A stretch of 64,000 nucleotides of DNA from Tetracentron sinense (lineage: Eukaryota; Streptophyta; Magnoliopsida; Trochodendrales; Trochodendraceae), in assembly GCA_015143295.1 (NCBI GenBank), contig CM026566.1, forward strand, positions 9,535,072 through 9,599,071, in the 5' to 3' direction. Both the position numbers and the translations under genes were made by a program. Shown here one piece after another: positions 4,114 to 39,516 of this stretch. The notes under the pieces are model-generated. The model was not told the DNA's origin and ran no database searches. It saw only the letters and a program-made list of their open reading frames with translations. Within the stretch, counting starts at the first letter, position 1. Every line of letters starts with the position of its first letter.

Positions 4114-4233
4114 ATGTCGGCAGGTTCTGAGGGAGCTGCTACTCCATTTGATGTTTGTGCTCCTGGTCCATGGGTGGAGGAGGAGTATGTCGAGGAGCCT
4201 TTGGAGGAACCTCCAGTAGAGGGTTACCAATAG
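4114..4233 (+). CDS. LTR micro-ORF, 39 aa (S1)
   Basis: Small acidic ORF starting MSAG at the conserved ATGTCGGCAGGT, with a PWVEEEY core at residues 19-25 and ending EGYQ. The same frame is kept in LTRs A, B, C, G, H and N with mainly third-position changes, which suggests selection on protein. No known domain is recognised and there is no signal peptide or membrane segment. The function is unknown. The GT of the GGT codon overlaps a possible splice donor, so nucleotide-level constraint is a competing explanation. Confidence 0.5.
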   Translation: MSAGSEGAATPFDVCAPGPWVEEEYVEEPLEEPPVEGYQ

Positions 4234-6759: not shown

Positions 6760-6893
6760 CTGTGCGATTATGTAACTAATATCAGTAGATTTCAAATAGT
6801 AACAAGCATCATACATAGGTAACCCTTAGTATAACTAACCGCATAACAAGCCACAGAAATTTTATACAACTTAAACTCAAAATTCTCGCGTAC
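6760..6893 (-). other. Putative GT-AG intron between gag and pol (element A), 134 nt
   Basis: On the minus strand gag reads GTG CAA G then GTACGC, and after 134 nt ATAATCGCACAG precedes GC GCT TTA TTA GTG. Removing the intron joins gag and pol in frame ([20 protein letters not shown]). A branch-like CTACTGATAT lies about 25-35 nt before the acceptor. Without splicing, translation stops four codons later (REF stop). The same donor, acceptor and frame relation are in elements H and N. Splicing is inferred; no RNA evidence is available here. Confidence 0.75.
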
Positions 6894-8130
6894 CTTGCAC
6901 GACATCGTCGGATGCACGTGCGTCTCTCTCCGATAGAGCAAAAACTCGACCCTGAGTGGCTGGGCGAGGAGGCCGGGCAGACTGTGAGGCCCTCGAAGCC
7001 TGAGAAGAGCTAGGCTGAGATGTCTGCCTAATCGGGGGCCTGCTCCCCGAAGACTGAGCTGGCAATCGACGTCGGGGACAATCCCGAATCATGTGGCCCT
7101 GGTCGCCACAATGAAAACAGCCTCCTGTAGCCTTCCGACATTCCCCTACTGGATGCCTCCTTCCACAAAGGGTGCAGACATCATGTGAATAAGTGAGAGG
7201 AGTATAACCCATAGCCTGAGTCACTGCGGGGCGAGGAGCATACGAGGTAGCCGGGCGAAAAGCCGGTGGAGTAAAAGGGCGGGGGGCCTGTGGTGCCGAG
7301 TACATCCTCTGTGACTGAGCCGGCCCTGCGGACTGATAAGACATAGTCCTAGCTCTCTTCTCCCCTGAACTACTAGACTGTCCCTTCTCTATTCCTCTTC
7401 TCTTAAAGAACTCTTCGGAATTAGACTCGGCCAACAATGCTTTGTCCACAACTTCTGAATATGTCTCATGTCGGAACATTGAGACACGATCCTTGAGGTA
7501 GGCCTTCAACCCCCTCTCGAATTTCCGGGCCTTCATAGCCTCGGTAGCTATCATGTGTGGAGCAAATCGAGATAGCTCTGAGAACTTGACTTCGTAAGCC
7601 GCTACAGACATATTACCTTGCTCCAAGGTAATAAATTAAATTTCTTTCTTTTCTTTCATCCCAACCGGAAAGTATTTCTTGTAGAAAACGTCCAAGAATT
7701 CTCCCCATGTCCATTCTTGGCCTTGCCGGGTCAACTCTCGGGTCCGAAGTGCAGACTTCCACCAATGGTCGGCCTCGCCTTCAAGCATAAAGGCAGCCCA
7801 TGTGACCCTTTCTACTTCCGTAGGTGCCAAAACTGAGAATATCTTCTCAAGTTGCCGAATTCAACCCTCGGCAACAAGTGGATCAATGCTTCCACAAAAA
7901 GTTGGAGGCCTCATCCTCCGGAAAGCTTCTATCCCGGCTTGGGCTCGGTTAGGAGGAGCCGGTATAAGTGCCGCATTAGGCGGGGTGGCCGGTTGCCTTG
8001 CCGCCAACATAGCCAAAGTCTCGGCTATGGATGCGAATGCTTGGGCAAAGTTGGGCTGATCATCACCCGATGGAGCATCACCTCCATTACCCCTCGTGTT
8101 GTACCCGCGACCCCGGGTATTGCGTCCCAT
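6894..8130 (-). pseudogene. gag of element A (two in-frame stops)
   Basis: Nucleocapsid/capsid polyprotein. It starts MGRNTRGRGYNTRGN, aligned with the MRRG... starts of the other elements. The retrotransposon gag core has WWKSALRTREL, FLDVFYKKYFPVG and MSVAAYEVKFSELSRF. Two zinc knuckles follow: a variant CX2CX3HX4C (CTLCGRRHPVGEC) and a standard CX2CX4HX4C (CFHCGDQGHMIRDC). All parts share one frame, but TGA at 7861-7863 (a lost Trp) and TAA at 7636-7638 interrupt it. The 3' end leads into the intron at VVQG. Confidence 0.9.
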
Positions 8131-8442
8131 GATTTCTCCTGAGAACGACAATACAGCATGAGTCTAACTTGGATACGCATTTAGTACAATTTTTCGCAAT
8201 TCACTCAATACATATTCATCAAGCACATTTAATAAGTACAACACCAATAATGTACACATGGTATATAACACAATAGCATAACATACAATCCGTGTTCCTA
8301 GTGTAGGACTCTATGTTCGGTTGAAGTTCAACCCATTTTGACTAAGACTAACTTGTTAGTCTATACTTGGAATACAACTCTCTAAGGTGATTCTAATACC
8401 TTGTTCAATCATCTAAGTGACCCTAGGGACTCTAATACCTAG

Positions 8443-8459
8443 GGCTCTAATACCACTTC
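8443..8459 (-). other. Primer binding site of element A
   Basis: The minus strand reads GAAGTGGTATTAGAGCC directly after the LTR end. It matches the initiator tRNA-Met site (TGGTATCAGAGC) with one C-to-T change. Confidence 0.88.
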
Positions 8460-8739: not shown

Positions 8740-8880
8740 TCAACAGTAGTCGAGGTATGGCCACACATCCAAGTCCCCATCCTCTTGAGACTGCCATGGG
8801 ATAGGTGGCTCCCTCTCCGCTACATACTCCTCCTCGACCCAAGGCTCGGGGTCGAGGACATCCACGGTACCTGCCGACAT
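8740..8880 (-). CDS. LTR micro-ORF, 46 aa (element A 5' LTR)
   Basis: Starts MSAG; an in-frame upstream ATG (MLSRTF) lies 18 nt before. PEPWVEEEY is at residues 11-19, IPWQSQ at 27-32, and it ends WPYLDYC. It is strongly acidic with one Cys as the last residue. This long form (WPYLDYC end) is shared with LTRs C, G, H and, without an ATG, I. Synonymous third-base differences at PEPWVEEEY and WPYLDYC between families argue for coding. Nothing recognisable by homology; function unknown. Confidence 0.55.
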   Translation of the reverse strand: MSAGTVDVLDPEPWVEEEYVAEREPPIPWQSQEDGDLDVWPYLDYC

Positions 8881-9154
8881 AAAAGTACGGCTGAGCATGG
8901 AATACTCAGCGAGTACAAACTACTAGCTAACCATAACAATAACGAACGCATAACAACAGTGAGCAATACAAGATATTAATTTAAAGCAATAGTGAAAGCA
9001 TAAGATACATAGCCATATCTTGACATACGTATATGAATGCAAAAACCTCGGTAAAACTCATGTCTCGGAAACCTTTTTCGTGTCTCGGTCAAATCATGTA
9101 TGTGTATCGTGTCTTGTCTTGTATTTCATGTCTTGATTTGTTCTTGACTTGTAT

Positions 9155-9575
9155 ACTTGTGAGCCAGAGGCTAGCACCCTTCCTTGGGCTACCAACCTCC
9201 TTGTCATGTTCTTGTTCCATTTCTCTTGTGAGCCAGAGGCTAGCACCCTTCCTTGGGCTACCAACCTCCTTGTCATGTTCTTGTTCCGTTTCTCTTGTGA
9301 GCCAGAGGCTAGCACCCTTCCTTGGGCTACCAACCTCCTTGTCATGTTCTTGTTCCGTTTCTCTTGTGAGCCAGAGGCTAGCACCCTTCCTTGGGCTACC
9401 AACCTCCTTGTCATGTTCTTGATTCATTTCTCTTGTGAGCCAGAGGCTAGCACCCTTCCTTGGGCTACCAACCTCCTTGTCATGTTCTCTCTTGCATTTC
9501 ACTTGTGAGCCAGAGGCTAGCACCCTTCCTGGGGCTACCAACCTCCTTGTCATGTTCTTGATTCATTTCATATAC
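9155..9575 (-). repeat. Six-copy 69-70 bp minisatellite in LTR A
   Basis: The unit includes GAGCCAGAGGCTAGCACCC and GGGCTACCAACCTCCTTGTC, repeated at 9161, 9230, 9299, 9368, 9437 and 9507. Because 69 is a multiple of three, long reading frames open on both strands across it, which I treat as artefacts. The same unit in reverse orientation is in LTR C (six copies) and LTR G (four). Confidence 0.93.
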
Positions 9576-10549
9576 AAATACAATCTTGGAAAAAAAAACC
9601 CGGTTTCATGCATGCATGCGTGCTTGTGTGCTTGTCAATAGTGGTAATCATGATGACATACTTGAATGGGCGGATCACATGACTATGGCATTTCAATCCT
9701 TAACATAGTGGTATGAAAATTTAGGCAACATATAGCACATTTGAGCAATTTATCATTTCTAAGAACATTTACACAATTTCTATTTCCATTTTCTTCATTA
9801 AGTCCATTTATCCCTTGTTTAGTCATTTTATCAAACACCCGGTGGGCCACATTTCTTAGTCCTTCCATTTCCCTTATTTAGTGCGTATTTTTCATCAAGA
9901 CATCAAGGTACATTCGTTATTTGTAAAGTGCCCATCTTCCATTTTCCTTTTCACACATCACACAACATCCATACGGCATCCAATCGCCTCAATCGACATC
10001 CCATCCACACATTTATTCCATTCCCCTTATCTTGTTTATATTTGTTGAGTTAATACAATGCATAGGGAAGGAAAAGCATAATATATATAATCACCATTTA
10101 CACTAGAAAACCTAGGTTATTGCTAGGGAAAGTTAGTAGGGTGTACTAACCTTGAATCAAGGCTTGATCCTTGGTAGGGACCTTGATTGAAGCTCCAACT
10201 TGAAAGATGAACACCTTTGCTTGAAGGAGATTCGAGTTAGGGAAGAAACCCCTTTCAAAAATGTGCTTGGGTTGCTGCCCTAGCTTGGAGAATGGTTCAC
10301 ACACGAGCTTGAGCCTCGATTTTGAAGCAACTCCAGTTGGGGTGAGCTATGGTTCTTAAACCCCCTTTGATTTCCTTCTCAAAACCAAACCCTAGGTTAG
10401 AGCTTTCTCCTCCTCTCTCTCTATCTCTCAAAATCCCTCAATGTTGTAAGTGAGGCCTCAAAGGGTCGAGCAAACCCTTATGGGTAAGGGTTTAACACCC
10501 AAAAGACGAAAACGCCCTTACTGAAATTTATGCAAAAACGCGAAGACCG

Positions 10550-10726
10550 AGCGATCGGTGGTTATGACCGATCGATCGGTTGCCTACCGAGCGATCGGTG
10601 TTTATGACCGATCGATCGGTCAAAAACTCACTCTCTGGAAAATTTCCCCATACAAAATTTCTGACCGTGCGATAGCTACCGATCGATCGGTTATGGACCG
10701 ATCGATCGCTGACTGGACCGAGCGAT
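10550..10726 (-). promoter_or_regulatory. GATCGATC palindrome array in LTR A promoter
   Basis: Perfect or near-perfect palindromes of the form ACCGATCGATCGGT recur at about 10567, 10607, 10678 and 10697, with half-diverged copies (GAGCGATCGGT) between. A spacer with CTCTCTGGAAAATTTCCCC and CATACAAAATTT lies inside. On the element's own strand the array lies upstream of the TTAAACCC promoter region. A regulatory role is inferred from position only. Confidence 0.65.
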
Positions 10727-10942
10727 CGGTGCTCTGTATGTCTGGACTGTTTTGACCATATCTTTTGACTCGCTCGTCGGATTTCGACGATTCAACTTGC
10801 GTTGGGTTCGTCTTTCGAAAACGCACATTTCTGACATTTCGGAATTTCCAATTTCTCCCTTATTTATTAATTAGACTACGAAAACAGCCAATTAGCTATG
10901 AAAGTGCCATTCATTAAAGATGAAAAAGTCCGGGGTGCTACA

Positions 10943-12519: not shown

Positions 12520-12639
12520 CTACTGATAACCCTCTACGGGAGGTTCCTCCAAAGGCTCCTCGACGTACTCCTCTTCCACCCATGGACCAGGAGCACAAAC
12601 ATCAAATGGAGCAGCAGCTCCCTCAAAACCTGCCGACAT
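12520..12639 (-). CDS. LTR micro-ORF, 39 aa (element B)
   Basis: Short form: MSAG start, PFDVCAPGPWVEEEY core, ending EGYQ. It differs from the S1 copy at only a few residues. A conserved hairpin-like CTGAG...CTCAG block lies about 20 nt upstream. Unknown function. Confidence 0.5.
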   Translation of the reverse strand: MSAGFEGAAAPFDVCAPGPWVEEEYVEEPLEEPPVEGYQ

Positions 12640-13205: not shown

Positions 13206-14084
13206 TTCTTATGATAATGCATGATTGTCTTGTCCTTGCCAAAAGCGAGGTAAAACATATCGTACGATATGCCCCACCTCTAAACCGTGTTCTTGAAAAC
13301 GCCGATAAAACATGCCATGCATTCGTGCTCGTGAAATCGTGTGCATACTTACATTTGAAATTAAATATGGCAATTTGGGGTAATTCACAAAGCATAACAT
13401 ATAACAAATTAAGTGAGTAATAATCTACACATTTTAAGAAATGTAAGAAACACACTATCATGAACCCTAACAAATTTCAAGAGTACTTAAGCATGGGTTC
13501 CCTTAATTTATCATTTATTTTTTTCACCTTGGCATTTCATCAAACATAGGGTGTGTTGATTATTCACTTAAACCTAGATCATGCTTTTCTAGGTGGGTTA
13601 TGCTCACATCACACTTGTATGTTCATTATTAGTACAATGCCATTTCCCATTCATTCATCACATCATCCACACGGCACCCATTCGCCAACATCCACCTCCA
13701 TTCACCATTCATACCACCAATCTCATAACACATATATAAGTGAAGGAAAACAAGAAGAAATAAAGGAAAAGAGAAGCTATAACTAGGAGGGTAGCAAAGA
13801 GTACCAACCTTGATAGGGAAGAAAACCTTTGCAAAAACGTGCGTGAGATGCTACCGAGCTTGGAGAACGTGGTCCTCCCGAGCTTGACCGAAGCTTGGGG
13901 TGATCTAGGGTATCAAACCCTTGATTTCTCCTTCAAGAACAAACCCTAGGTTAGGATCCCCTTCTCCTTTCTCGCTAACTCTCAAAATACTCTAGGTGTG
14001 TGAATGAGAGCCCTAAAGGCTAAAGCAACCTTTATAGGTAGTGAAGAAACCCTAAAAATCCGATTAAAATTTCTGGATTCGCGA

Positions 14085-14255
14085 TCTACGATCGATCGTA
14101 GGTTGTACTACGATCCATCGTAAATTATCCACGATCGATCGTATATCGACCCGAAACTTTTGTCAATTCCTGAGATTCTACGATCGATCGTAACCTCTAC
14201 GATCGATCGTAACTCACCTACGATCGTTCGTAGGGTGTGTACGATCGGTCGTAAC
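14085..14255 (-). promoter_or_regulatory. TACGATCGATCGTA palindrome array in LTR B
   Basis: At least five palindromes of the type TACGATCGATCGTA occur at about 14088-14255, just upstream (on the element strand) of the TATA-like box at 14029-14036. The base sequence differs from the CCGATCGATCGG version in LTR A at the same position. Confidence 0.62.
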
Positions 14256-14480: not shown

Positions 14481-15485
14481 TAAGCCTTTTCACTTCCGAG
14501 GATTAAGAGAGAGGGACATTGCTCGCCTCGCAGCCTTGAGTGTAGCAAACCTAGAAGCACAAAACAATCGGCCATTCCAGTCGTGAGTGATTTCTTGGAC
14601 ATGTTTCCGGAGGAACTTCCCGGGTTACCTCCGAATCGGGAGATTGAGTTCGCTATAGAGCTTACTCCGGGCACCGCTCCAATTTCAAGAGCCCCATATA
14701 GAATGGCCCCGATAGAGCTTGAAGAATTGAAGAAGCAAATTGAGGAGTTACAACAACTTGGTTTCATCCAACCAAGTGTGTCACCGTGGGGAGCTCCGGT
14801 CCTTTTTGTAAAGAAGAAAGACGGGTCGATGAGAATGTGTATAGACTATCAAGAGAGCATACAAATGGCGCCTTTCGAGGCTTTGTACAGAAGGAGTTGT
14901 AGATCCCCGTTGTATTGGGATGAAGTGGGAGAAAGAAAGATTTTGGGCCCCGAGTTAATTGAACAAAGCGCGGATAGGGTCAAGCTTATCCGGGAGAGGT
15001 TAAAGACCGTACAAGATAGACAGAAAAGCTATGCCGACAACCAAAGGAGGGATCTTGAATTCCGAGTCGGTGATTTTGTGTTTGTAAGGATTTCACCGAC
15101 CAAAGGTGTTATGCGATTCAGGAAGAGAGGCAAGCTTAGCCCGAGATATGTGGGTCTGTTCGAGATCATTGCTCGAGTTGGTGAGGTAGCTTACCGGGTT
15201 GCTTTACCCGCTCATATGGCGGCGGTCCACAACGTGTTCCACATCTCCATGCTCTGGAAGTATATCCCGGATCCTTCACATGTCGTCGAACTTGATACGA
15301 TAGAGATCCGAGAGGACCTCACGTTGGTTGAGAAGCCGATTCACATATTGGATCAAAGAGACCAAGTGCTTCGCAACAAGACCATACCGCTAGTCCTAGT
15401 GCAATGGCAACATCACTCGAGAGAAGAAGCCACGTGGGAGCGTGAAGCCGAAGTCAAAGCAAAGTATCCCGAGTTGTTTGAATAG
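14481..15485 (+). pseudogene. Element C pol remnant with internal deletion (protease end / RT start fused to integrase C-terminus)
   Basis: The plus strand begins inside the protease-RT linker ([16 protein letters not shown]). A single-base frameshift lies near 14563, then the frame runs from [11 protein letters not shown] to MCIDY, where it jumps directly to [13 protein letters not shown] of the integrase. About 2 kb encoding the RT catalytic core, RNase H, HHCC finger and integrase DDE core is missing. The C-terminus (GPY-like [14 protein letters not shown], chromodomain-like EEATWE) is intact to the stop at 15485. A polypurine tract and 3' LTR follow. Confidence 0.92.
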
Positions 15486-15577: not shown

Positions 15578-16944
15578 TGTAGCACCCCGGATTTTTCTAT
15601 ACTTAATGAATACCGTTTTCGTAACTAATTGGCCTTCCTCATAGTCTAATTAATAAATAAGAGAGAAATCGGAAATTCCAAAATGTTAGAAATGTGTGTT
15701 TTCGAAAGACGAACCCAACGCAAGTTGAATCGTCAAAATCCGACGAGCGAGTCAAAAGATATGGTCAAAACAGTCCTAACATACAGAGAATCGATCGCTC
15801 AGTCCAGTCAGCGATCGATCGGTCCATAACCGATCGATCGGTAGCTATCGCACGGTCAAAAAATTTGCATGGGGAAATTTTCCAGAGAGTTGATTTTTGA
15901 CCGAGATCTCGGTCAATCAACCGATCGATCGGTCATAACCACCGATCGCTCGGTCCTCGCGTTTTTGCAAAAATTTCAGTAAGGGCGTTTTCGTCTTTTG
16001 GGTGTTAAACCCTTACCCATAAGGGTTTGCTCGACCCTTTGAGGCCTCACTTGCAACATTTGAGGGATTTTGAGAGATAGAGAGAGAAGAGGAGAAAGCT
16101 CTAACCTAGGGTTTGGTTTTGAGAAGGAAATCAAAGGGGGTTTAAGAACCATAGCTCACCCCAACTCGAGTTACTTCAAAATCGAGGCTCAAGCTCGTGT
16201 GGGAGCCACTCTCCAAGCTAGGGCAGCCATCTCACGTACGTTTTGAAAGGGGTTTCTTCCCCAACTCAAGTCTCCTTCAAGCAAAGGTGTTCTTCTTTCA
16301 AGTTGGAGCTTCAATCAAGGTTTCTATCAAGGATCAAGCCTTGATCTAAGGTTAGTACACCCTACTAACTTACCCTAGCAATAAATCTAGGTTTTCCTTA
16401 TGAAATATGATTCTTGTTAGTATGTTTTATTCCTTGCAAAATGTGTCATCTATAATAAATATAAACAAGATAAAGAAAGGGTAGGGATGCTTGGATGGAG
16501 GTTGGATACGGCGATTGGATGTCGAATGTGTGATGTATGATGTGTGGGTTGTGGATTGGAAAATGGAGGATGGGCATAGTACAAATAACAAACTTACCAT
16601 TGTGTGATTGAATGGAAAATATGCATTTAAAAGAAGGAGATAAACTACTAAGGAATAATGTATGAAAGTGTTTGACAAAATACCTAAACTATGAATAAAT
16701 GATCTCAATAAAGAATATAGAAATGAGTTTTATGCATGCGTTCTTATAAATGATAAATTGATCAAATGTTATGCAAACTACTTATGTTACCTATGTTCAT
16801 ATCATGAATTGAATTATAATGTCATATTTTGGTTATTCCCATTATCATGATTGTCACTATGGACACGTACACGAGCACGCATGATAGCATGAACCGTGAT
16901 TTCAAGAGCATGTGCATATAATAAACAACAAGAAAATATTGCAT

Positions 16945-17358
16945 GTCAATGAGGTTGGTAGCCCAGGGAGGATTCGGGTACTAACCTCTGGCTCACAAGA
17001 TAACCCCTAAAACACCTATTGTCAAGGAGGTTGGTAGCCCAGGGACATTCGGGTACTAGCCTCTGGCTCACAAGAAAACTAAACAAGTAATAAAAATCAC
17101 CTATTGTTAAGGAGGTTGGTAGCCCAGGGACATTCGGGTACTAACCTCTGGCTCACAAGAAAACCATGCATTTCATAACAAAGAGGATGGTAGCCCAGGG
17201 ACATTCGGGTGCTAGCCTCTGGCTCACAAGTGCATTGCATATCAAGGAGGTTGGTAGCCCAGGGACATTCGGGTGCTAGCCTCTGGCTCACAAGTGCATT
17301 GCATATCAAGGAGGTTGGCAGCCCAGGGAGATTCGGGTGCTAGCCTCTGGCTCACAAG
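16945..17358 (+). repeat. Six-copy minisatellite in LTR C
   Basis: Unit: GAGGTTGGTAGCCCAGGGA, then a variable GTACTAACCTCTGGCTCACAAG or GTGCTAGCCTCTGG, period about 60-80 bp. It is the reverse complement of the LTR A unit, as expected from opposite element orientation. Confidence 0.9.
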
Positions 17359-17646
17359 TTACAAGATGGAGGTTTACAAGATGATGATCATGCATTCATG
17401 CATACACGCATACATGATTTCTACGAGGCATACTGGGACATGACAGGGGTTTTCAAGCATGAGTTTTATCGGCGTTTTCGCAGTCATGTACACACGTCAG
17501 GATGCTTGTATTGTGTCATGCCCTATACTGTTTCTTTGTGATGTTTCTATTACTGCTTGTATGATATTACTATTGTGTGTTTTATTATTGTTATGGTCTG
17601 CTAGTAGCTTGTACTCGCTGGGTATTCTATGCTCAGCCGTACTTTC

Positions 17647-17787
17647 ATGTCGGCAGGTACTGAGGGAGCCCTCGACCCGGAGCCTTGGGTCGAGGAAGAG
17701 TATATAGAGGAGAGAGAGCCGGCTATTCCATTACAGTCTCAGGCGGACCGAGACCTCAATGCGTGGCCATACCTCGACTACTGTTGA
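17647..17787 (+). CDS. LTR micro-ORF, 46 aa (element C)
   Basis: MSAG start with an in-frame upstream ATG at 17629 (MLSRTF). PEPWVEEEY at residues 11-19, IPLQSQ at 27-32, WPYLDYC end. Possible splice donor GT at 17657 lies inside the fourth codon and a matching acceptor ends at 17998 (342 nt). Confidence 0.55.
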   Translation: MSAGTEGALDPEPWVEEEYIEEREPAIPLQSQADRDLNAWPYLDYC

Positions 17788-18071
17788 GGGGAGAGTATGA
17801 GAGGGTCTTGTGTATTTTGATATTTTGATAGGTGGGCCTATCCACCTTAGACTTAGACATGTCTTGTATTTATGTTAACTTGGAATACTATTTTGGATCA
17901 TCAGAAGAAATGAAAATTTGTTTACGCTTCCGCATATATGATAGCTTCCGCGCTCTAATTATCGTTGTTAGTATTGTATTTTATCTTGTGCATTACAGGA
18001 TGGTTTGATAGGTACGCAGTGTGACACCTAAAATATCCCTAAACTCCTAGGGGGTATTTCGGGGCGTTACA

Positions 18072-18092
18072 CTTTAAGGGCAAGTGGGTGAT
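18072..18092 (+). other. Polypurine tract remnant of copia element D
   Basis: AAGGGCAAGTGGGTGAT directly before TGTTGGACAT is the typical polypurine tract of plant copia elements. All that remains of the internal region of D on this side is about 20 bp, because element C inserted here. Confidence 0.75.
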
Positions 18093-24512: not shown

Positions 24513-24789
24513 GAAATTTTCACGACCCAAAATACCCCCTAGGAGTTAGGGATACTTTGAATCATGATGTGCCGTATCCGATACCAAACCATTCTGCAAT
24601 AATACCTAAGGCATGACATAATGAAATCATAAAGTAATGCGGAAGCTTATATCAAAGTGCAGAAGCTTAACCCAAAAATTTCTTTTTCTATATATACTCT
24701 GTATTCCAAGGTTGTACATACATAATCAAAAGTAAAGGTGGACATGCCCACCTATCAAAATACAAAAAGAAACCTCACAGTCTCTCCAC

Positions 24790-24921
24790 TCAGCAGTAGT
24801 CTAGATAGGGCCACCTATTTAGATCTCTATCCTCTTGTGACTGCATCGGGATAGGCGGATCCTTTTCTTCTTCGTACTCTTCTTCAACCCATGGTTCCGG
24901 GTTACGAATGTTAAAGGAACC
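24790..24921 (-). pseudogene. LTR micro-ORF of element H 3' LTR, split by LTR G
   Basis: The frame GSFN ... PEPWVEEEY ... IPMQSQ ... RWPYLDYC stop is intact on this side. The first three codons lie beyond the insertion at about 27289-27298, with ATG present. It confirms the 46-residue long form in the H family. Confidence 0.45.
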
Positions 24922-25132
24922 TGTAGCACCCCGGACTTTTTCATCCTTAATGAATAGCACCTTCGTAGCTAATTGGCCGTTTTTGTAGTGTAATTAATAA
25001 ATAAGGGAGAAATCGGAAATTCCGAAATGCTAGAAATGTTCATTTTCGAAAGACGGATCCAACGCAAGTTGAATCGTCGAAATCTGACGAGCGAGTCAAA
25101 AGATATGGTCAAAACAGTCCAGACATACAGAG

Positions 25133-25318
25133 CACCGATCGCTCGGTCCAGTCAGCGATCGATCGGTCTATAACCGATCGATCGGTAGCTATCGCACGGT
25201 CATAAATTTTGTATGGGAAAATTTTCCAGAGAGTGAGTTTTTGATCGGTCGATCGGTCATAAACACCGATCGCTCGGTAGGCAACCGATCGATCGGTCAT
25301 AACCACCGATCGCTCGGT
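25133..25318 (+). promoter_or_regulatory. GATCGATC palindrome array in LTR G
   Basis: Palindromes CCGATCGATCGG at about 25155, 25175, 25245 and 25282, with GAGCGATCGGT half-copies. Near the middle is the spacer TTTGTATGGGAAAATTTTCC. Confidence 0.62.
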
Positions 25319-26304
25319 CTTCGCATTTTTGCAGAAATTTCATTAAGGGCTTTTTCATCTTTTGGGGGTTAAACCCTTTCTTCTTAAGACTTGCCCGAGC
25401 CTTAGGGATCATTTCCAACATTTGAGAGATTTTGAGAGATAGAGAGAGAAGAGAAGGAAGCTCTAACCTAGGGTTTGGTTTTGAGAAGGAAATCAAGGGG
25501 GGTTTAAGAACCCTAGCTCACCCCAACTCGAGTTGCTTCAAGTTCAAGGCTCAAGCTCGTGTGGGGACTCATTCTCCAAGCTAGGGCAGCGATCCTACGG
25601 CGTTTTGAAAGGGGTTTCTTCCCCAACTCAAGTCCCCTTCAAGCAAAGGCTTCCTCCTTCCAAATAGAGCTTTTGTTTCAAGGTTTCTTCAAGATCAAGC
25701 CTTGATCTAAGGTTAGTACACCCTACTAACTTACCCTAGCAATAAATCTAGGCTTTCCTTATGAAATATGATTCTTGTTAGTATGTTTTATTCCTTGCAA
25801 AATGTGTCATCTATAATAAATATAAACAAGATAAAGAAAGGGTAGGGATGCTTGGATGGAGGTTGGATACGGCAATTGGATGCCAAATGTGTGATGTATG
25901 ATGTGTGGGTTGTGGATTGGAAAATGGAGGATGGGCATTGTACAAATAACAAACTTACCATTGTGTGATTGAATGAAAAATATGCATTAAAAAGAAGAAG
26001 ATAAACTACTAAGGAATAATGTATGAAAGTGTTTGACAAAATACCTAAACTATGAATAAATGATCTCAATGAAGAGTATAGAAATGGGTTTTATGCATGC
26101 GTTCCTATAAATGATAAATTGATCAAATGTTATGCAAACTACTTAAGTTACCTATGTTCATATCATGAATTGAATTATAATGTCATATCTTGGTTATTCC
26201 CACTATCATCATTGCCACTATGGACACGTACACAAGCACGCATGATAGCATGAACCGTGATTTCAAGAGCATGTGCATATAATAAACAACAAGAAAATAT
26301 TACA

Positions 26305-26572
26305 TGTCAAGGAGGTTGGTAGCCCAGGGAGGATTCGGGTACTAACCTCTGGCTCACAAGATAACCCCTAAAACACCTATTGTCAAGGAGGTTGGTAGCC
26401 CAGAGACATTCGGGTGCTAGCCTCTGGCTCACAAGTGCATTGCATAACAAGGAGGTTGGTAGCCCAGGGACATTCGGGTACTAACCTCTGGCTCACAAGA
26501 AAACCATGCATTTCATAACAAGGAGGTTGGTAGCCCAGGGACATTTGGGTGCTAGCCTCTGGCTCACAAGTT
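26305..26572 (+). repeat. Four-copy minisatellite in LTR G
   Basis: Same GAGGTTGGTAGCCCAGGGA ... CTCTGGCTCACAAG unit as LTR C, with fewer copies. Confidence 0.9.
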
Positions 26573-26857
26573 ACAAGATGGAAGTTTACAAGATGATGAT
26601 CATGCATTCATGCATGCACGCATACATGATTTCTACGAGGCATACCGGGACATGACAGGGGTTTCCAAGCATGAGTTTTATCGGCGTTTTCGCATTCATG
26701 TACGCACGTCAGGATGCTTGTATTGTGTCATGCCCTATACTGTTTCTTTGTGATGTTCTATTACTGCTTGTATGATATTACTATTGTGTGTTTTATTATT
26801 GTTATGGTCTGCTAGTAGCTTTTACTCGCTGAGTATTCCATGCTCAGCCGTACTTTC

Positions 26858-26998
26858 ATGTCGGTAGGTACTGAGGGAGCCCTCGACCCGGAGCCTTGGG
26901 TCGAGGAAGAGTATATAGAGGAGAGAGAGCCGACTATTCCATTACAGTCTCAGGCGGACCGAGACCTCAATGCGTGGCCATACCTCGACTACTGTTGA
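26858..26998 (+). CDS. LTR micro-ORF, 46 aa (LTR G)
   Basis: MSVG start, PEPWVEEEY at 11-19, WPYLDYC end. It differs from the LTR C copy by very few residues. Confidence 0.5.
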   Translation: MSVGTEGALDPEPWVEEEYIEEREPTIPLQSQADRDLNAWPYLDYC

Positions 26999-29132
26999 GG
27001 GGAGAGTATGAGAGGGTCTTTGTGTATTTTGATATTTTGATAGGTGGGCCTGTCCACCTTAGACTTAGACATGTCTTGTATTTATGTTAACTTGGAATAC
27101 TATTTTGGATCATCCGAAGAAATGAAAATTTGTTTACGCTTCCGCATATATGATAGCTTCCGCGCTCTGATTATCGTTATTAGTACTGTATTTTATCTTG
27201 TGCATTACAGGATGGTTTGATAGGTACGCAGTGTGATACCTAAAATATCCCTAAACTCCTAGGGGGTATTTCGGGGCGTTACAGAACCTACCAACATAAA
27301 ATGTACGGCTAAGCATGGAAAACTCAGCGAGCCAAAACTACTAGCTAACAGTGATATCATAATTGTAATATTAAATACAGGTGCAAGAGGAAATACAAAT
27401 CATAAGTTCATCCTTAAAAACTCCGTCATGGAAAATATTTCATTAAACTTGTTCTTTTCAAGGAAAACAAACCGTCTTATGCATGCTTATGAATTCTTAT
27501 GAATGCTTCTGAGTCTTGTGTTTTCTTATGAGTTCTTATGAGCTTTCGAGTTCTTATAACGTTTCTTGTGTGCATACGAGTTCTTATGAGTTCTTCACTA
27601 GTGGTGCCCTTCGTACCACCCACTAAACACCCACCTAAAGTAGCTTGGGAATATCAGATGGTTAGTGGCGCTCCTCGGGCCATCCCACTAGCTTACGAGT
27701 TCTTACGAGTTTATTCTTGTGAGCTTATGATCCTTGGAGATATATGCAAGATCTTAGACTTAGGAAATTCTTATGAGTTCTTGAAGTGACCGATCTTAGA
27801 AATACCAACCCAAAGTTTGGCTTTGTCAAATGCTTATGCAAAAACTCGATCATGCAAAACTTATCGTGCGTGGAGTGCATGTGAGCATTCTCATGTCCAT
27901 ATGGAAAGCCTTAACAATTCACATAAATTCATACAAGACATGTTCGTATTATAGTATACTTTAATAATTCTAGAAACATAGCATATTTCCCATTCATTTG
28001 ATCATATCATCAAAACCATGGCTTTTAAGTCTAATTCATCACATCATACTTAAAATCATGGTTTATTTAGAGATAATAACCTTTACTTAAAGACATAGTC
28101 ATATTAATCATCTTTTCCGATCTTGGTATGATAACAAGGCTAGATAGTAGGTTTACTTAATTGCGAGGCTCAAATCTTGGCTTGGAAGGACGATTGAACA
28201 CAAGCTTGAGCTTGAAAATGGATATCCACACTCAATGATGAAGATCCAAGCTAGTGGAAGCTTGGATCTGACCTCCACTTGATAACCCAAACTCCCCTTG
28301 AGAAAAACCCTAACTTCTCCCCTTCTTCCTCTCTAAAATCTCTCCAATTTTGTCTTAGAGGGTTTATGAACCCCTAACCCACGAAATTTGGGTATATAAG
28401 GGCAATGGGGTGGTCAACGACCAACATACCCTTAATGAATTGGCTTAAAAATGACCAAAAATGGCCAAAATTGCGAGGTTTGGTCAATCGATTCAAAATA
28501 GGCTCTCTGGAATAATTTACCATACAATTTTTGGTCGGTTTGGTTAACCGGTAGTGAGGTTCGGTCGACCAGATAGGAGGGTCGGTCGACCGGATTTGTG
28601 TTCACTATCAACTGGTTGCTGACCCACTTTGGTATTTTAGCCATAACGTTTGAATCGCTACTCGGATTTTAACGATTTAACTTGCGTTGGCTTCATTATT
28701 AAAAGGGGAAAAATTTTGTATCTAATGTCCAAATCCTAATTTTTGAGTTTTTAATTACCTTAATGGGCTCTAAATCCAACTGGTCTGGAAATGGGTTTCA
28801 GCAACTTGTATTTTTAGCAGATCCGACTTTGGAAATTGGACTTTTGACTCATCCCCAACTCAAAATCAGGAAAAGGGATCAACATGAACCTCAAATATGG
28901 TTCTAATAACTTTCGAAAAATTCAAGAATCGCTCTTTTCTGATCAGCGGTGAGAGAATTAGAGCTTTTCAAAGTTGAGGGTATGCAAAGGCATAACCCTT
29001 ATTGATACTTAAGAGTATTCTATACTCTTATATTCTTCATTCCAAACACCCATATACCAAAAATATATTCTTAAGGCTTTTAATACATGATATCATTCAT
29101 CATACTAGGCCATCAAGATTCGGGGTTTTACA

Positions 29133-29146
29133 TCCTCCCCCTTACA
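29133..29146 (-). other. Polypurine tract of element H
   Basis: The minus strand reads GTAAGGGGGAGGA before TGTAAAACCCCG. The upstream motif CGAGGACGAAATTTC is again present. Confidence 0.88.
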
Positions 29147-29214
29147 GAAATTTCGTCCTCGAAATTTGAACGATACATAGGAATGATAAAGAACAAAATT
29201 TACATAAACATCGA

Positions 29215-32200
29215 TTATACAAATAAATGGGGATACTTTTCCCTCACTTATGCTTCGTGTTCCCATGCAGATTCTTCCCTAGAGTGATGTTGCCACCGAA
29301 TGAGAACCAAGGGAATAACCTTATTGCGCAAAACTTGATCTCTACGTTCCAAAATCTGAACCGGCTCTTCCACTAATGTGAGATCCTCCTGGATTTCCAA
29401 CGGATTAAGATCAATGACATGAGATGGATTTGGGATGTACTTTTGGAGCATGGCCACATGGAAGACGTTGTGAACCGCCGCCATGTGAGTGGGTAGAGCA
29501 ACCTAATATACAACTTCACCAACTCGGGTGACAATCTCAAGCGGACCCACATACCTCGGGCTGAGCTTTCCTCTTTTTCCAAACCTCATAACACCCTTTG
29601 TCGGTGAAACCTTCACAAATACCATATCGCCAGCACAAAACTCAAGATCTCGTCTATGGGTGTCAGCATAGCTCTTCTGCCTGTCCTGAGCCGTCTTCAA
29701 TCTTTCTCTAATGATCTTGATCTTATCCACGGTCTGCTCGACCAACTTCGGGCCCAATATATTTCTCTCTCCAACTTCATCCTAATATAGGGGAGATCTA
29801 CAATTTCGACCGTACAAGGCTTCGAAAGGTGTCATTTGGATGCTCACTTGATAGCTGTTATTGCAAGCAAACTCAACCAATGGTAAATGATCCTCCCACT
29901 GCCCTTGAAGTCCAACATGCAAGCTCAGAGTATGTCCTCTATAATCTAGTTCACCCTCTCAGTCTGCCTATATGTTTGAGGATGAAAGGCGGTGCTAAAG
30001 TCCAAACGGGAACCCATAGCGCTTTGAAAGCTCTTCTAGAACCTAGAAGTGAATCTCGGATCCCTATCTGAAACAATGCTGACTGGAACCCTGTGCAATC
30101 GAACCACTTCTTTGATGTACAATGCAACCAACTGGTTCGCATTGAACGTAGTCCGATAAGGCAAGAATTGGGCAGACTTTGTCAAACGATCAACCATTAA
30201 CCAAATTGCATCGGAGTTCTTCACCGTCCTTGGCAATCTAACTATAAAATCTATGGAGATGTTCTCCCATTTCCACTCAGAATAGGAAGGGATTGCAAAA
30301 GCCCTGCTGGCCTCATATGTTCAGCTTTCACCTGTGGGCATATCAAGCATCTTGACACATACTCGGCAACTTCGCTCTTCATGTTCCGCCACCAATAGTG
30401 CTTCTTTAGATTCTGGTGCATCTTAGTACCACCAGGATGAACAGTGTCTTTGGACCGGTGAGCTTCATCTAGGATTTTTCTCTTCAACTCCACATCCGTA
30501 GGAACACACAACCTTCCTTTAAATGTTATCGCTTTGTTACCGTTCAAAGAGAACTCATCACTGCCCTTGCTAACGGCCTTATCTTTGTAAGCAAGTAGCT
30601 CCGCATCCGAATCCTGCAACTCTCGGATCCAAGCTAGGATATAAGGCCTGACTGTGAGATTAGCCATGACTGGCCCAAATGTAGGAATACTGAAGCTAGT
30701 ATCGAGATTTTCCATGACCTCCAACATCTTCCATTCATGAATCATCATGTGGGCTACAAGTCTATTAGGTTTTCTGCTCGAGGCATCTGCCACCACATTA
30801 GCCTTACCCGGATGGTACTAGATAGAACATTCGTAGTCCTTTAAGAATTCCATCCATCGGCACTGTCGTATATTCAATTCCTTTTGAAAAAATAGATATT
30901 TTAAGCTTTTGTGATCCGTGAAAACATCAAATTCTTCCCTATAAAGGTAATGCTGCCAAATCTTTCATTCGAATACCACCGCGGCCAACTCCAAGTCATG
31001 AGTAGGATAGTTCTTTTCATGGTCCTTCAACTGTCGGGAAGCATAGGCGATGACATTCCCGCGCTGCATAAGAACACATCCTAGCCCAACAGTCGAGGCA
31101 TCACTGTAGACCACGACACCTCCACTCCCAGATGGCACTATGAGAACGGGGGCCATAGTAAGCCTCTTCTTCACCTCCATGAAACTCACTTCACATTTGT
31201 CACTCCAAGCGAACTTGGCATTTTTCTGCATCAAATACATGAGTGGTGCTGCTAAGCTGGAGAATCCCTCTACGAATCTCCTGTAGTATCCACCCAAACC
31301 GATGAAGTTGCGTATCTCGGTAACACTCCTAGGTCTCTCCCATTTCATCACTGCTTCTATCTTTGCTGGGTCCACTGAAATACCCTCGCCAGATACCATC
31401 TGGCCAAGGAACGCCACTTTCTCCAACTAAAATTCGCACTTACTCAACTTGGCATACAGTCTATGCTCTTGAAGAGTCGCAAGTGTAAGGCGAAAGTCTC
31501 GATCATGATCCTCCCGTATCGGGGAATACACTAAGATATCATCAACAAAGATGATAACACATCTGTCGAGACAAGGCTTGAACACCCGGTTCATCAAATC
31601 CGTAAATGCTGCCAGTGCATTCGTTAGACCAAAAGGCATGACCAAGAACTCGTAATGTTTGTACCGATTCCTAAAGGTAGTCTTTGGAACATCTTTGGCC
31701 TTGATCTTCAACTGATAATAACTTGATCGTAGATCAATCTTGGAGAAGAACCTTGCTCCCTTCAGTTGATCAAACAAATCGTCTATCCGTGGTAATGGAT
31801 AACGATTTTTTATGGTAAACTTGTTCAATTGTCTATAGTCGATGCACATCATCATTGACCCATTCTTCTTCTTCACGAAGAGTACCGGTGCTCCCCACGG
31901 TGAGACACTTGGTCAGATGAAACCAAGTTGTTGCAACTCTTCAATTTGCTTCTTCAATTCTTTAAGTTCAATTGGGGCCATTCTGTATGGAGCCTTAGAA
32001 ATCGGAGCCATTCCTAGAGCAAGCTCTATTGCAAACTCTATCTCCCTATCTGGAGACAACCCCAGTAAGTCCTCAGAAAATACATCCAAATACTCACTCA
32101 CAATTGGGATGGCTGAGGAGTCTCGTGCCTCTGGATTTGCAAGACTTAGAGCCACTAGACAGGCTATATCTCTCCTTCGAAGTCCATAAAAGTGGAATGG

Positions 32201-32544: not shown

Positions 32545-32684
32545 CTGTGCATTATAATTAACTATATCAATAGATTTCAAGCAAAACATACATCAAGTAT
32601 AGGTGGAATAATATACACGTAAACAGACATATAAAATATAATACCCATTAATTCATACTTCAATAATTTAGAAATTTAGCGTAC
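32545..32684 (-). other. Putative GT-AG intron between gag and pol (element H), 140 nt
   Basis: Donor CAAG/GTACGC and acceptor ATAATGCACAG/GC; joining gives [20 protein letters not shown] in frame. The branch-like region GAAATCTATTGATAT matches that of element A (one base differs), although the two introns are otherwise diverged. Confidence 0.72.
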
Positions 32685-34529: not shown

Positions 34530-34670
34530 TCAGCAGTAGTCTAGATAGGGCCACCTATCTAGATCTCTATCCTCCTATGACTGCATCGGGATAGGCAGAT
34601 CCCTTTCTTCTTCGTACTCTTCTTCAACCCATGGTTCCGGGTAGCAAAAGTTAAAGGAACCTACCGACAT
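34530..34670 (-). pseudogene. LTR micro-ORF of element H 5' LTR with one stop
   Basis: MSVG start, PEPWVEEEY at 11-19, RWPYLDYC end. A TAG replaces the Gln codon after MQS that is CAA in the 3' LTR copy. Confidence 0.45.
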
Positions 34671-35654
34671 AAAATGTACGGCTGAGTATGGAATACTTGG
34701 CAAGCCAAAACTACTAGCTAACAGTGATATCATAATTGTAATATTAAATGCAAGTGCACAAGTTCATGCTTAAAAACCCTATCATGGAAAATCTTTCATA
34801 AAACTTGTTCTTTTCATGGAAAGCTATAGAGCCCCAAAATTTGGGTTCACTGTGCTATGAATAGTTTTAGTGAATAGTGTCCTTGTATGGTGTATGTAAA
34901 GGCTTAGAGCCTTCCATCTTGTTCTTGGTTGTATGGTGAGTCAAGTAAGTATTTTAGGTATGTGTGCAGAGTATGAGTAGACTCTAAGTGGGTAAAAATC
35001 AAGGGTATAAAATACCCTAAGTGCTTAAAGGGTCATAAGTAAAGAGTGCGGTGAATAGTGCTGTGAATAGTGCTTGTGAGGCTCAAAGTTCTCTATGTGC
35101 TTGTGAATTAGGTGACGAGTTTATTAAGTCAATGAGTATAGGTTTTATGGTGTGTGTGGGTACTAAATAACCATCCTTGATGTTTATGGGTGTTAAAATA
35201 AAAAGGGGAAATGTTTTAAGTGTTAAGAGGGTAGATTTCTTACCATAACCTCAACTTGAGGGAGCTCTAGTTGGGTCATATCTTATTGGAATCGAGAGAT
35301 TCTTAAACCATTAGAAATATATTGAACCCCTCTTTAAAGTTCATGTTTATCACTTTTTTCAATTTAGAACAGAAGTTAAGTCAAATGTGGGATTTCCGGA
35401 ACTTGGTCTGCTGAGAATTCCTGGAACAGTTTGGACCAGTCCACTTGTGGGATCATTTAGACCTTTTAAAACTCAGAATTGGGCTTTTTCTAAAACATTA
35501 AAGTTGTTCTACATTGAATGTAGAATCCAACGCAAGTTGAATCGTCAAAATTAGATCACCGAGTCAAAAGTTATGGCCAAAACATCGAGACAAACAAAAC
35601 CGAACAGCATGAGCGGGAGACGAGCGGGAGACGAGCGGGAGACCCCTCCACTAA

Positions 35655-35760
35655 GGGTCGACCGGTCAAACCAGGGGTCGACTGGTCTCGCACTATTTTG
35701 TATGGGGGTTTATTCCAGAACCCCCTAATTGAACCGGTCGACCAGTGGACACCTCTGGTC
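35655..35760 (+). promoter_or_regulatory. GGTCGACC palindromes and TATA box of LTR I
   Basis: GGTCGACCGGTC, GGTCGACTGGTC and ACCGGTCGACCAGT lie around the spacer TGTATGGGGGTTTATTCCAG. A clear TATATAAA is at 35846-35853, about 85 bp downstream. This copy shows best that the palindrome slot is promoter-proximal. Confidence 0.65.
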
Positions 35761-36579
35761 AATCCCTCCATGCTTTTTGGTGCCTAAACCGACCTTGGGG
35801 GAGATATTTTGAAGGGTATATGGGCTTTTTGACAACCCCTTTGCCTATATAAAGCCCCACACTCGTGGGTAAGGGTTTACACAACCCATAGACCAGATTT
35901 TGAGAGAAACGGGAGCGAAGTTAGGGTTTATGAAGGGGGTTTTGCTAAAGGTGGTTGTCAAGGGTTAGAGTGAAGCTTGTTTAGCTTCTTGAAGTGCGAT
36001 CTTCACTTTCTCAAGCTTTCCCAAGTTGGAATTGATTCCACAAGCTTCCTCAAAGCTTTCTCTTGCTTCTACGGAGTATTCTTAAGCGAGTAAACCGTAG
36101 GGAATCGGTTTTGGTGAGGTAGATATAATCTACTATCTAGCTTTGTTATGAATTCCCTTTGTTTTTCACTCTATGATGTTTCCTACAAAATAAATCCTCT
36201 ATGTTTAAGAAATTTTAGATTTCAATGATGTATGATACTTTATGCGTATGCCTCAATTCTATTAAGTTATTTTATGATTTTCATGATACTTACAAGAGCT
36301 ATGTGCTATGTTTAAGAGATTCTAAGTCTAACATGATACTCAAAGTTCTCACACGTTATATTCCAAGTTTTCAAAGGATTACGCTATTATGTCAAAAGGT
36401 TTTCTAAGTTTACTATAGATGTTCATATGTCTCGCATGTACACTAGTCTCGCATGAATCGGATTTCTCATAAGTTGGATGTTTCAAAATTCATAAGAATT
36501 GTTTAAGAAAACCTCATAAGAACTCATAAGTGATTTTCCGGGATCATACATGCTCAAAAGTATCTCAAAAGCTCATTCA

Positions 36580-36750
36580 TATCTCGCAAGGCATCATTCA
36601 TATCTCAAAAGGCATCATACATATCTCACTAGGCATCATTCATATCTCACAAGGCATCATACATATCTCACAAGGCATCGTTAATATCTCGCAAGGGATC
36701 ATTCATATTTCGCAAGGCATCATGCATATCTCACAAGGCATCATATGTGG
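36580..36750 (+). repeat. Tandem 20-21 bp repeats in LTR I
   Basis: About eight units of AAGGCATCATTCATATCTCA with small changes; the 3' LTR has a shorter array (about 41240-41345). Confidence 0.88.
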
Positions 36751-37018
36751 CTCGCACGACTCATAAGGTTTCATTAGTACTCATAAGCACTCTTAAGAAC
36801 TCATAAGCAACTGATTTACAAACGACCTCATAAGATACGTTTTGTTTTAATGAAAGCTCAAAAGATAAGGTTTAAATGTAAAAGTATGATTTCCTAGTTC
36901 GGTTTAAAGCATGAAATATGAATTGTTAACCCTTTATGTGCTCACATGATATTGTTGCTTTATAACACTATTAGCTAGTATTTTGTACCCACTATGTATT
37001 CCATGCTCAGCCGAATTG

Positions 37019-37156
37019 TTGACTTCGGTAGGTTTTGTGGATGTACCTGCTCCCGAGCCTTGGATAGAGGAGGAGTACTACGAGCCTGAGCCTGCAATGG
37101 ATCACTACCAAGATGACGGAGCTCTAGATAAGGGGCCCTATCTAGACTATTGTTGA
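37019..37156 (+). CDS. LTR micro-ORF relative, no ATG at the usual place (element I)
   Basis: The frame reads TSVGFVDVPAPEPWIEEEY, then MDHYQDD, and ends GPYLDYC stop. The PEPWxEEEY core and PYLDYC end match the long form with different codons, but the ATG of the other families is absent (TTG ACT TCG). The 3' LTR copy (41630-41755) has TGG to TAG in the core. Confidence 0.4.
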   Translation: MTSVGFVDVPAPEPWIEEEYYEPEPAMDHYQDDGALDKGPYLDYC

Positions 37157-37466
37157 GTGATGTGAGATAGAAGGTCATGTATTTTGAAAGTGGGAAATGT
37201 CCACTTCAGATTATGTATTTTGAGAGTATTGAGGGTGGGACTTGTCCACTTCCTACTTAAAGTTTACTATGTTCTGTGGTTCAAACTTGAACCTGATAGG
37301 AGTACGTTATTTTGAATTACTTCCGCTATGTTTTAGTTCTATGTATAACTTGTGCACTCTGACAGGGTGTTAAGTATGCCTTATGTGTCATACAGGATGG
37401 TTTGACACGGTGGTCACGAACTAAAGTATCCCTAACTCTTAGGGGGTATTTTGGGTCACGACAAAC

Positions 37467-37480
37467 TTGGTATCAGAGTT
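37467..37480 (+). other. Primer binding site of element I
   Basis: TTGGTATCAGAGTT starts four bases after the LTR end; complement of tRNA-Met. Confidence 0.87.
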
Positions 37481-37991
37481 TAGGCATTAGACCCATAGGT
37501 ATTTAAGGGTGTTCTTTGAGTTGAACTTAGAACTCAGATGAATCCTACCTTATATGTTGATACTAAGACAAGATTTGTATCAATACTTAGGAATTTGAAT
37601 CCCTAGGGTCGAGGTTGTTCTTCAAGGAAAACATATCTCCTTCGAATTTGAGTTTGTTCTTATTGTAGGTTGAGATAGCAACATAGTGGGTGTCAAGCTA
37701 AGGAAATTTGGTTTCCTTGGGTTAGGCTGTCTTCTAAGCGGAGAGGAAGTTAGGAGTCGTATTCCAAGTATCAACGAATATTTAGTCTTAGCCGTAAGTC
37801 AGTTAATGTCTTAACCAAACGTGAGAACTTAGCATCGCTAGGAAACCAAGTTGTATGATTATACTATTATGTGTATACCTTGATGTATACTATGCGCTTA
37901 TATAGGCGAGATATGCTCGTTGAATTGCTATGTTCAAAGAGCTTAATTTCCCGTTCGACTCACGCTTTGCTATTGTCCTCAGTATTTGATC

Positions 37992-39232
37992 ATGAGGCGT
38001 GGCATCCGAGGTAGAGGGTATCAGACCCGAGGAAATAGGGGTGAGATTCCAGTGGGAGATTAGCAGCCAGACTTGACTCAAATCCTTGAGGCTATAGCAG
38101 CGACTATGGCTATGCTTGTAGATAGGGCTAATACTCCTATTGTAGCTGCTGCACCTACACCTCCTCCTGTACACCACACAAAAGGACTCGAAGCGTTTAG
38201 GAGATTGAAGCCTCCTACCTTCTATGGGACTCTTGATCCCACGACTGCAGAAGCATGGATCATGCAACTGGAGAAGACTTTCACAGTGCTCCACTGTACT
38301 GATGAGCAGCGCGTTGAGTGGGCTTCCTTTGTGATGAAAGGTGAAGCCAAGCACTGGTGGAGAGCTGCCCAGAGGCAGAGGGATACCGCAAAGGCAGGGG
38401 TAACCCTGGACATGGGGAGAGTTTTTGGATATGTTCTATGAGCAGTACTTTCCCAGGTTTATCAGGGAACAAAAGGAAAGAGAATTTATGCTTTTGGAGC
38501 AGGGAGAGATGAGCGTAGCCGCGTATGAGGCTAAGTTCATCGGCTTGTCGAGATTTACTCCGCATATGATCGCTACAGAGGGTATGCGGGTCAGAAAGTT
38601 CGAGACGGGGCTGAAATATTTCATCCGGGATCGGGTTTCCATTCTTCAGGTAGAAACCTGGAAGGATATTGTGGGCAAGGCAAGGATTGCTGAGTGGACT
38701 TCCGAGGAGTTGCTCAAGAGGAGAGACAGTAGTCTAGGGAGAGGCATGTTTGAAGGACTGTTCATTGGCTCAGCACCGCCTGAGAAGAAGGCCAGAACTG
38801 CTCCCTTTCAGAATTCTCCACCTACTAAGGCTCAGAGGCCTCATTTTGTTCCACAGACACCTCGCCCCTCTATGACGCAAGCCACTGGATATGTGCCGGC
38901 CGCAACCTCAGCATTTTCATTAGAGGTTTGCACATCTTGTGGCAAGAGGCATAAGGTTAGAGACTGCCGTAGACTCTCTGGTGGTTGTTTCCACTGTGGC
39001 GCTTTGGGGCACATGATCAGAGATTGTCCAAGGAGGCAGATGCAGCCAGTCCATTCTCAGGGAAGTAGGCCCCCAGTTCGACAGGCCCCACAACAGGGGT
39101 CTTCTCAGACTTATAAACCATTGCAGCCAACCCAGCAGCCTCAACAGGCGAGTCAAGGCAGAGCCTTCGCCTTATCTAGGAGAGACCCACATGCATCTGA
39201 GGATGTTGTGCAAGATACACTTAAGTCAGAGT
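37992..39232 (+). pseudogene. gag of element I (one stop, one frameshift)
   Basis: Starts MRRGIRGRGYQTRGN. A TAG at 38061-38063 and a one-base insertion near 38400 (before PWTWGEF) break the frame; the second part runs from 38402 in another frame. Core: MSVAAYEAKFIGLSRF, VSILQVETWKDIVGKARIAEW; zinc knuckles CTSCGKRHKVRDC and CFHCGALGHMIRDC. It ends EDVVQDT, where the intron donor GTACGC of other elements is ATACAC. The following AT-rich stretch resembles the intron, then the polypurine region follows; pol is absent. Confidence 0.9.
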
Positions 39233-39516
39233 TGTTGAACTGTAAATTATTGATAGTATGTGATATATGCTTATATGTGTGTATGAACATGCTACGTATA
39301 ATCTATGTGTATTTGATATGCATTGTTGAAAATTTTGTGTGTAACGTGTGCTTAGCCGGGCGACTGGCTGACTTGAGATTGATACATCCTTTTGGTTATG
39401 TGTGACATTGTCAAGTTAGTATGCTCAGTTGAGCAAGGTGAAGTGTGGGAAAGAATCCTCGCTTGCTTGTGTGTTGTCTTAATTTCGCGGAAGAAATTCT
39501 TATAAGGAGGGGAGGA
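39233..39516 (+). other. Non-coding 3' internal part and polypurine tract of element I
   Basis: AT-rich relic of the gag-pol intron region, then ATTTCGCGGAAGAAATTC and the polypurine tract AAGGAGGGGAGGA (39504-39516). Nothing of pol remains. Confidence 0.7.

Follow-up and report, generated by a model that had tools for sequence, protein, structure and literature searches.

A conserved coding frame in chromovirus-like long terminal repeats of Tetracentron sinense, probably an alternative last exon of Gag

Long terminal repeats (LTRs) of retrotransposons are usually regarded as non-coding. Coding sequence does reach into the 3′ LTR in the case of Sag of mouse mammary tumour virus (MMTV) and of lentiviral Nef. 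Here we report a short conserved reading frame in the LTRs of chromovirus-like elements from Tetracentron sinense (Trochodendraceae), analyzed in a 64,000-nt stretch of DNA (assembly GCA_015143295.1, contig CM026566.1, positions 9,535,072 to 9,599,071, forward strand; hereafter the window) and across the genome. The frame is real and protein-coding and, judging from its sequence context, is probably an alternative terminal coding exon of Gag, which would be spliced from a donor in gag into the 3′ LTR and so skip pol. Unlike the product of this model, Sag and Nef are separate proteins, with no Gag isoform involved.

Splicing that sets Gag against Gag-Pol is already known from BARE1, EVADE and Ogre, according to the available parts of the published accounts, which also underlie the comparisons that follow (PMC3735527; PMC12786077; PMC6317226). 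BARE1, a Ty1/copia element of barley, resembles the system proposed here in its GT-AG intron near the end of gag, its choice by splicing between Gag alone and a longer product, and its separate RNA pools, but differs from our elements, in which excision of the gag/pol intron fuses gag with pol; the available part of the account does not mention an LTR-encoded exon (PMC3735527). In Ogre (Ty3/gypsy, Tat lineage), as here, an intron spliced from a subset of transcripts opens the polyprotein, and again the accessible text contains no mention of an LTR exon (PMC6317226). EVADE of Arabidopsis produces by alternative splicing a short Gag mRNA, shGAG, that skips part of pol, as in our model, but shGAG ends by frameshift soon after the junction and has no conserved LTR exon in the portion available (PMC12786077). 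In Cer1 (Ty3/gypsy, C. elegans), gag-frame exons are likewise spliced to a separate exon encoding the C-terminal half of the protein CERV, which differs in having 517 aa and five exons, one of them in another frame, and whose last exon is not placed in the LTR by the accessible text (PMC10309623). Among the titles and abstract openings of the literature matches listed, no report of an LTR-encoded Gag exon appeared.

The elements in the window carry the gene set of chromoviruses: gag, protease, RT, RNase H and integrase were found with Pfam, integrase by its zinc-binding domain only. In one frame, 14484-15482, there was a match to the chromodomain (PF00385) with an E-value of 8e-5; its score of 22.9 bits falls short of the curated threshold of 25.1. 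LTR length and primer binding site hint at a possible placement in the Tekay/Del clade. A study of Del LTRs reports that some LTRs contain, in their 3′ part, a region of high conservation, and the terms intron, splic* and open reading frame are absent from its available text (PMC4029996). The accessible part of a machine-learning study of plant LTRs mentions neither open reading frames (ORFs) nor splicing (PMC11656987).

The original prediction had listed nine copies of the frame in the window, and all nine were recovered at the same positions and strands. Two of them need correction: the copy at 34530-34670 is interrupted, and the copy at 37019-37156 has no ATG. Two further copies, both damaged, were found. 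The frame copies, each a candidate exon, are as follows.

4114-4233 (+): short type (..PWVEEEYVEEPLEEPPVEGYQ)
8740-8880 (-): LTR A, the 5′ LTR of a minus-strand element; the predicted exon would start at 8870, after CAG
12520-12639 (-): short type
17647-17787 (+): LTR C, a 3′ LTR that immediately follows pol (14484-15485); the predicted exon would start at 17657
24790-24921 (-): copy in LTR E, truncated by LTR G, which starts at 24922
26858-26998 (+): LTR G
34530-34670 (-): copy with an in-frame TAG after MQS, hence no intact 46-codon ORF
37019-37156 (+): LTR I, opening with TTG, without ATG
41631-41755 (+): second LTR of element I; a TAG interrupts the core
56873-56992 (-): short type
58590-58709 (+): short type

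Element I (34827-42064) is internally deleted, with an LTR pair about 90% identical around only about 2 kb that contains a partial gag. The window also contains a run of 94 N at 47159-47252.

The frame is abundant in the 1.16-Gb genome that we searched. Four queries returned 24,536 to 31,802 first-look candidates each, and the 150 scored per query all matched, which is beyond chance. A sample was drawn by using the LTR end and primer binding site, rather than the ORF, as the search pattern; this gave 4,741 places, and 90 LTRs were taken from the 100 listed among them, all from one contig. At least 70 of these 90 LTRs have the frame with its core directly after AG/G (here and below, a slash within a motif marks a splice-like boundary), while 20 failed the filter. 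Because the filter itself admitted only LTRs with AG, a specified start pattern and the core, this fraction is a lower bound and the AG was partly selected for. Adding eight window copies and clustering at 93% identity left 28 representatives, of which the genome sample contributed 23. The motif PW[V/I]EEEY is kept in nearly every type, and WPY or a similar motif near the end in most types.

The frame peptide matches no known domain: the best Pfam hit had an E-value of 0.1 for one of 17 members, which is at chance level, and PDB and NCBIfam gave none. IMG/VR yielded no relatives by tblastn, and Rfam gave zero matches over 15578-18080. Four proteins from short ENA contigs match the peptide. One of them, P0002, the sole one compared with this genome, is only 67% identical to its best match here and is therefore very likely from another species. 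At the position of the frame boundary, three of the four have AGEQL and one ASEQL, with an ATG upstream at a varying distance when viewed at the protein level.

Comparisons of substitutions showed that the frame is under selection as a protein. With a minimum of 20 or 25 shared codons per pair, the proportion of nonsynonymous differences (pN) was below that of synonymous differences (pS) in all 373 pairs of the 28 representatives. The ratio of the corresponding rates (dN/dS) had a median of 0.28 over 251 usable pairs, and thus was not near 1; 121 pairs were saturated. Third codon positions accounted for 48% of differences (351 pairs). Median pN/pS was 0.45 in the true frame, and the two remaining sense frames gave 1.01 and 1.40; the only shifted frame with a signal was the antisense frame that shares the same third positions (0.55). 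A codon scan blind to the frame, run over the final 1,450 nt, ranked it first in three of four clades; in the remaining clade a T-rich window scored higher and the frame came second. Gap lengths were divisible by three in 37% of cases inside the frame and 22% in the flanks, which is too noisy for use. These results, above all the dN/dS estimates, the blind scan and the frame-specific pN/pS, bear out the earlier proposal of selection on a small acidic protein encoded in the LTR.

The coding nature of the frame agrees with the original prediction, but a free-standing frame that starts at ATG TCG (ATGTCGGCAG) is not supported. A free-standing acidic micro-protein, or a conserved upstream open reading frame (uORF), translated from this ATG in the LTR leader would be in keeping with the in-frame ATG in 15 of the 23 genome representatives and with the shortness of the frame, since conserved uORFs are short as well. 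However, the start codon is not conserved along with the peptide: it is absent from the other eight representatives, one LTR type has TGA in its place in all six copies among the 90 sampled LTRs, and the clade L023/L051/L078/L044 has TCA or TGA there. This ATG-less clade nevertheless shows dN/dS of 0.07 to 0.20 in five of its six pairs; the other pair was saturated. In addition, 32 to 56 other ATGs precede the frame in the unspliced leader, counted from the leader donor described below onward, in the seven LTRs whose stretch could be delimited at both ends. We consider a free-standing micro-ORF unlikely.

What is kept before the frame is YAG/GT, which resembles a phase-1 splice acceptor. A conserved palindrome stands upstream of it (in the LTR A copy, GCTGAGTAT-TCC-ATGCTCAGC), at a spacing from the frame of 36 to 41 nt in the 22 of 23 genome representatives measured. 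Because this spacing changes by amounts that are not multiples of three, the frame does not extend upstream; for the same reason, an ATG in the hairpin, rejected as a start candidate, is in frame in some families only. Given that the ATG is often lost, that selection persists without it and that the spacing is non-triplet, the frame most likely begins at the YAG/GT boundary, which resembles a 3′ splice site.

We then looked to the coding region of the elements for a matching donor. Comparison across families identified none in the leader and gag, and one in the gag/pol region, CAAG/GTACGC (AGG/GTACGC in S1), which was chosen because it is kept in all five loci compared. In these five loci, which represent four families, this donor interrupts the codon following VVQ in phase 1, and a phase-1 acceptor lies 134-140 nt downstream in four of them, the fifth being too decayed. 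Unspliced read-through closes gag after 3 to 13 residues that differ among families. The exact gag-pol junction without the intron was present in 28 genomic copies, compared to 0 for a control pattern. In the six of these whose junction was read, all were in frame (VVQG-[A/S]LLVNECLA); the gag start was visible in five, and the sequence before gag was unspliced there. The gag/pol intron is thus really removed by splicing, as its intron-less genomic copies demonstrate, and it is a GT-AG intron whose loss keeps the frame, as in the Ogre strategy. The corresponding features in the window are these.

6760-6893 (-): gag/pol intron of element A; donor CAAG/GTACGC, acceptor CGCACAG/G, both phase 1
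32545-32684 (-): gag/pol intron of element H, phase 1
60644-60649 (+): gag donor of element S1 (AGG/GTACGC)

Other donor candidates were rejected. The one at the gag LEQG motif is lost in some copies (CAAGGG in L044, CAGGGA in element I), none near the end of pol is common to the pieces compared, and the N-terminal gag sequence CGGGGTCG is a poor donor and missing in L043 and L037.

A second conserved donor lies within the LTR itself, upstream of the frame. Five LTRs of the window (A, C, G, I and B) have it, as do 10 of the 90 sampled LTRs, most of whose 1.5-1.7 kb stretches may stop short of the site. Its variants (AAG/GTTAGT, AAG or GAG/GTAGAT, AAG/GTTGGT) each stand at the base of a small inverted repeat, which reads GTTAGTA..TACTAAC at 10150 (-) and 16351 (+) and GTAGA..TCTAC in other families. 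The donor is preceded by a TATA-like string, which is weak in A and C but clear in certain families. The predicted leader exon so delimited has two ATGs in 1,805 nt over eight LTRs, versus 34.7 expected by shuffling; wG, in which no TATA string was found, was skipped in this count, and L040 has no acceptor string. Farther downstream, an acceptor such as TTCTCAG/GA precedes the gag start codon by 6-11 nt in 12 of 13 leaders; one of these 12, L037, has ATT as its gag start codon, and the thirteenth leader, L042, has CAT at the acceptor position. From these signals, promoter, start site and leader splicing are predicted as follows.

10151-10454 (-): predicted non-coding leader exon 1 of LTR A, without ATG; its start is placed by a weak TATA-like string
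8871-10150 (-): leader donor AAG/GTTAGT to acceptor CGGCAG/G, LTR A, with 56 ATGs
16351-17656 (+): equivalent donor-to-acceptor stretch, LTR C, with 54 ATGs
8444-8455 (-): primer binding site, element A
8128-8149 (-): acceptor GTTCTCAG/GA and then the gag ATG (8130-8128), element A

A 69-bp tandem repeat occupies 9155-9570 of LTR A, inside the predicted leader intron; related repeats with donor-like sites GAG/GTTGGT occur in LTRs C and G.

The presence of this donor in the same LTR would suit a coding exon whose partner is the leader exon, or an exon not found here, instead of gag. However, the leader is nearly free of ATGs, and in five of eight LTRs a stop closes its reading frame 0 to 3 codons upstream of the junction, so it cannot supply the start of the LTR frame; nor was a conserved phase-1 frame running from an ATG to the donor present in four aligned ATG-less LTRs. 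Such a partner for the frame therefore appears improbable. The leader exon had also been considered, and discarded, as coding sequence, having stops in frame and no codon signal in a test of low power, as had a cassette exon with an ATG inside the LTR, of which none is conserved in four ATG-less copies.

The block directly 5′ of the frame is conserved as sequence, and a DNA or RNA constraint (splice site, hairpin or regulatory element) in place of a protein would account for that, but it is very improbable in view of the third-position excess and frame-specific pN/pS within the frame; covariation in the hairpins was not clearly above that of shuffled controls. The palindrome in this block has nine pairs and a three-base loop in most of 20 aligned families. 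Its LTR A copy is the following.

8890-8910 (-): conserved palindrome before the acceptor, LTR A

Other palindromes occur elsewhere in the LTRs: several CGATCGATCGGT-like ones in the 5′ parts of LTRs A and C (about 10540-10742 on the minus strand and 15778-15978 on the plus strand), and ACGATCGATCGTA-like ones in LTR B at 14060-14217 (-).

The LTRs are mosaic in structure. Between 600 and 240 nt upstream of the frame, L033 and L035 share 93-94% identity, compared to 56% within it, and in both this pair and L017/L036 identity falls sharply around the frame while farther stretches are nearly identical. Such profiles suggest that the exon appears to have been exchanged between element families. 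Accelerated synonymous change within the frame was also considered: pS rose up to about fivefold above the upstream flank in several close pairs, but L047/L102 gave 0.07 vs 0.07, and the distant pairs were inflated by free gaps. The idea was dropped; because mosaic LTRs let recombination explain it, high synonymous divergence relative to the flanks needs no special cause.

The LTR acceptor has the same phase as the gag donor, the frame needs no ATG, and a reachable copy lies 3′ of pol; an alternative last exon of Gag is for these reasons the simplest model. In the element that ends in LTR C, for example, pol (14484-15485) is followed by the LTR (15578-18071), so that a reachable copy of the frame lies downstream of pol. 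Under this model, transcription would start from a promoter inside the LTR, and the near-ATG-free leader exon would be spliced to the acceptor 6-11 nt 5′ of the gag ATG, dropping U5, the primer binding site and the leader to give a translatable Gag mRNA. The phase-1 donor at the end of gag (VVQ-G/GT) would then have two partners. Joined to the acceptor 134-140 nt downstream, it would yield Gag-Pol; joined to YAG/GT in the 3′ LTR, it would skip pol and place on Gag an acidic tail of the form ..PW[V/I]EEEY .. WPY-stop in most types. Unspliced RNA would serve as the genome and would also give Gag with a short, unconserved tail. We infer both the gag-to-LTR junction and a function of the tail from sequence. 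As a guess, the tail might serve particle assembly or host contact; a possible parallel is CERV of Cer1, with a tail role in RNA export, as far as the accessible text of that account goes (PMC10309623).

Several observations weigh against a Gag tail. The ATG in those 15 representatives is in frame at just the right place for a start and, the LTRs being mosaic, the protein pattern of the ATG-less families could partly stem from ATG-bearing ones. A stricter earlier donor comparison of internal regions found none, agreement in phase between donor and acceptor would by itself arise by chance in 1 of 3 cases, and the 28 intron-less copies are not necessarily 28 separate events. The T content of the leader intron is barely above that of the exon in LTR A (0.26 vs 0.25) and slightly above it in others. 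Beta chromoviruses have one continuous gag-pol ORF in the available account (PMC3605345), and a 2019 survey, in its accessible part, lists two separated ORFs for Bianca and Ogre only (PMC6317226), so a gag/pol intron is not general in chromoviruses. The gag-LTR junction pattern, restricted to the A/C type, had 0 matches in the genome, and a second junction search gave one unrelated match compared to two control matches. Retrocopies of gag-LTR RNA are not expected, because the splice would remove the polypurine tract and U3, yet these searches still lend the junction no support. Finally, no fused Gag-tail protein was found; only P0003 matched, and it is not fused.

Taken together, it seems on balance likely that these elements represent a widespread class of plant chromoviruses with a Gag exon in the LTR, in which alternative splicing from one gag donor would give either Gag-Pol or a tailed Gag, and the tail would be a conserved accessory domain that matches no family searched. 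If so, the 3′ LTR would combine a promoter-bearing repeat, a poly(A) region and a last coding exon. This would call for caution in element annotation, in the assumption of neutral LTR evolution and in LTR-based dating of insertions, and it would make the balance of Gag, Gag-Pol and genomic RNA of these abundant elements testable through a named junction.
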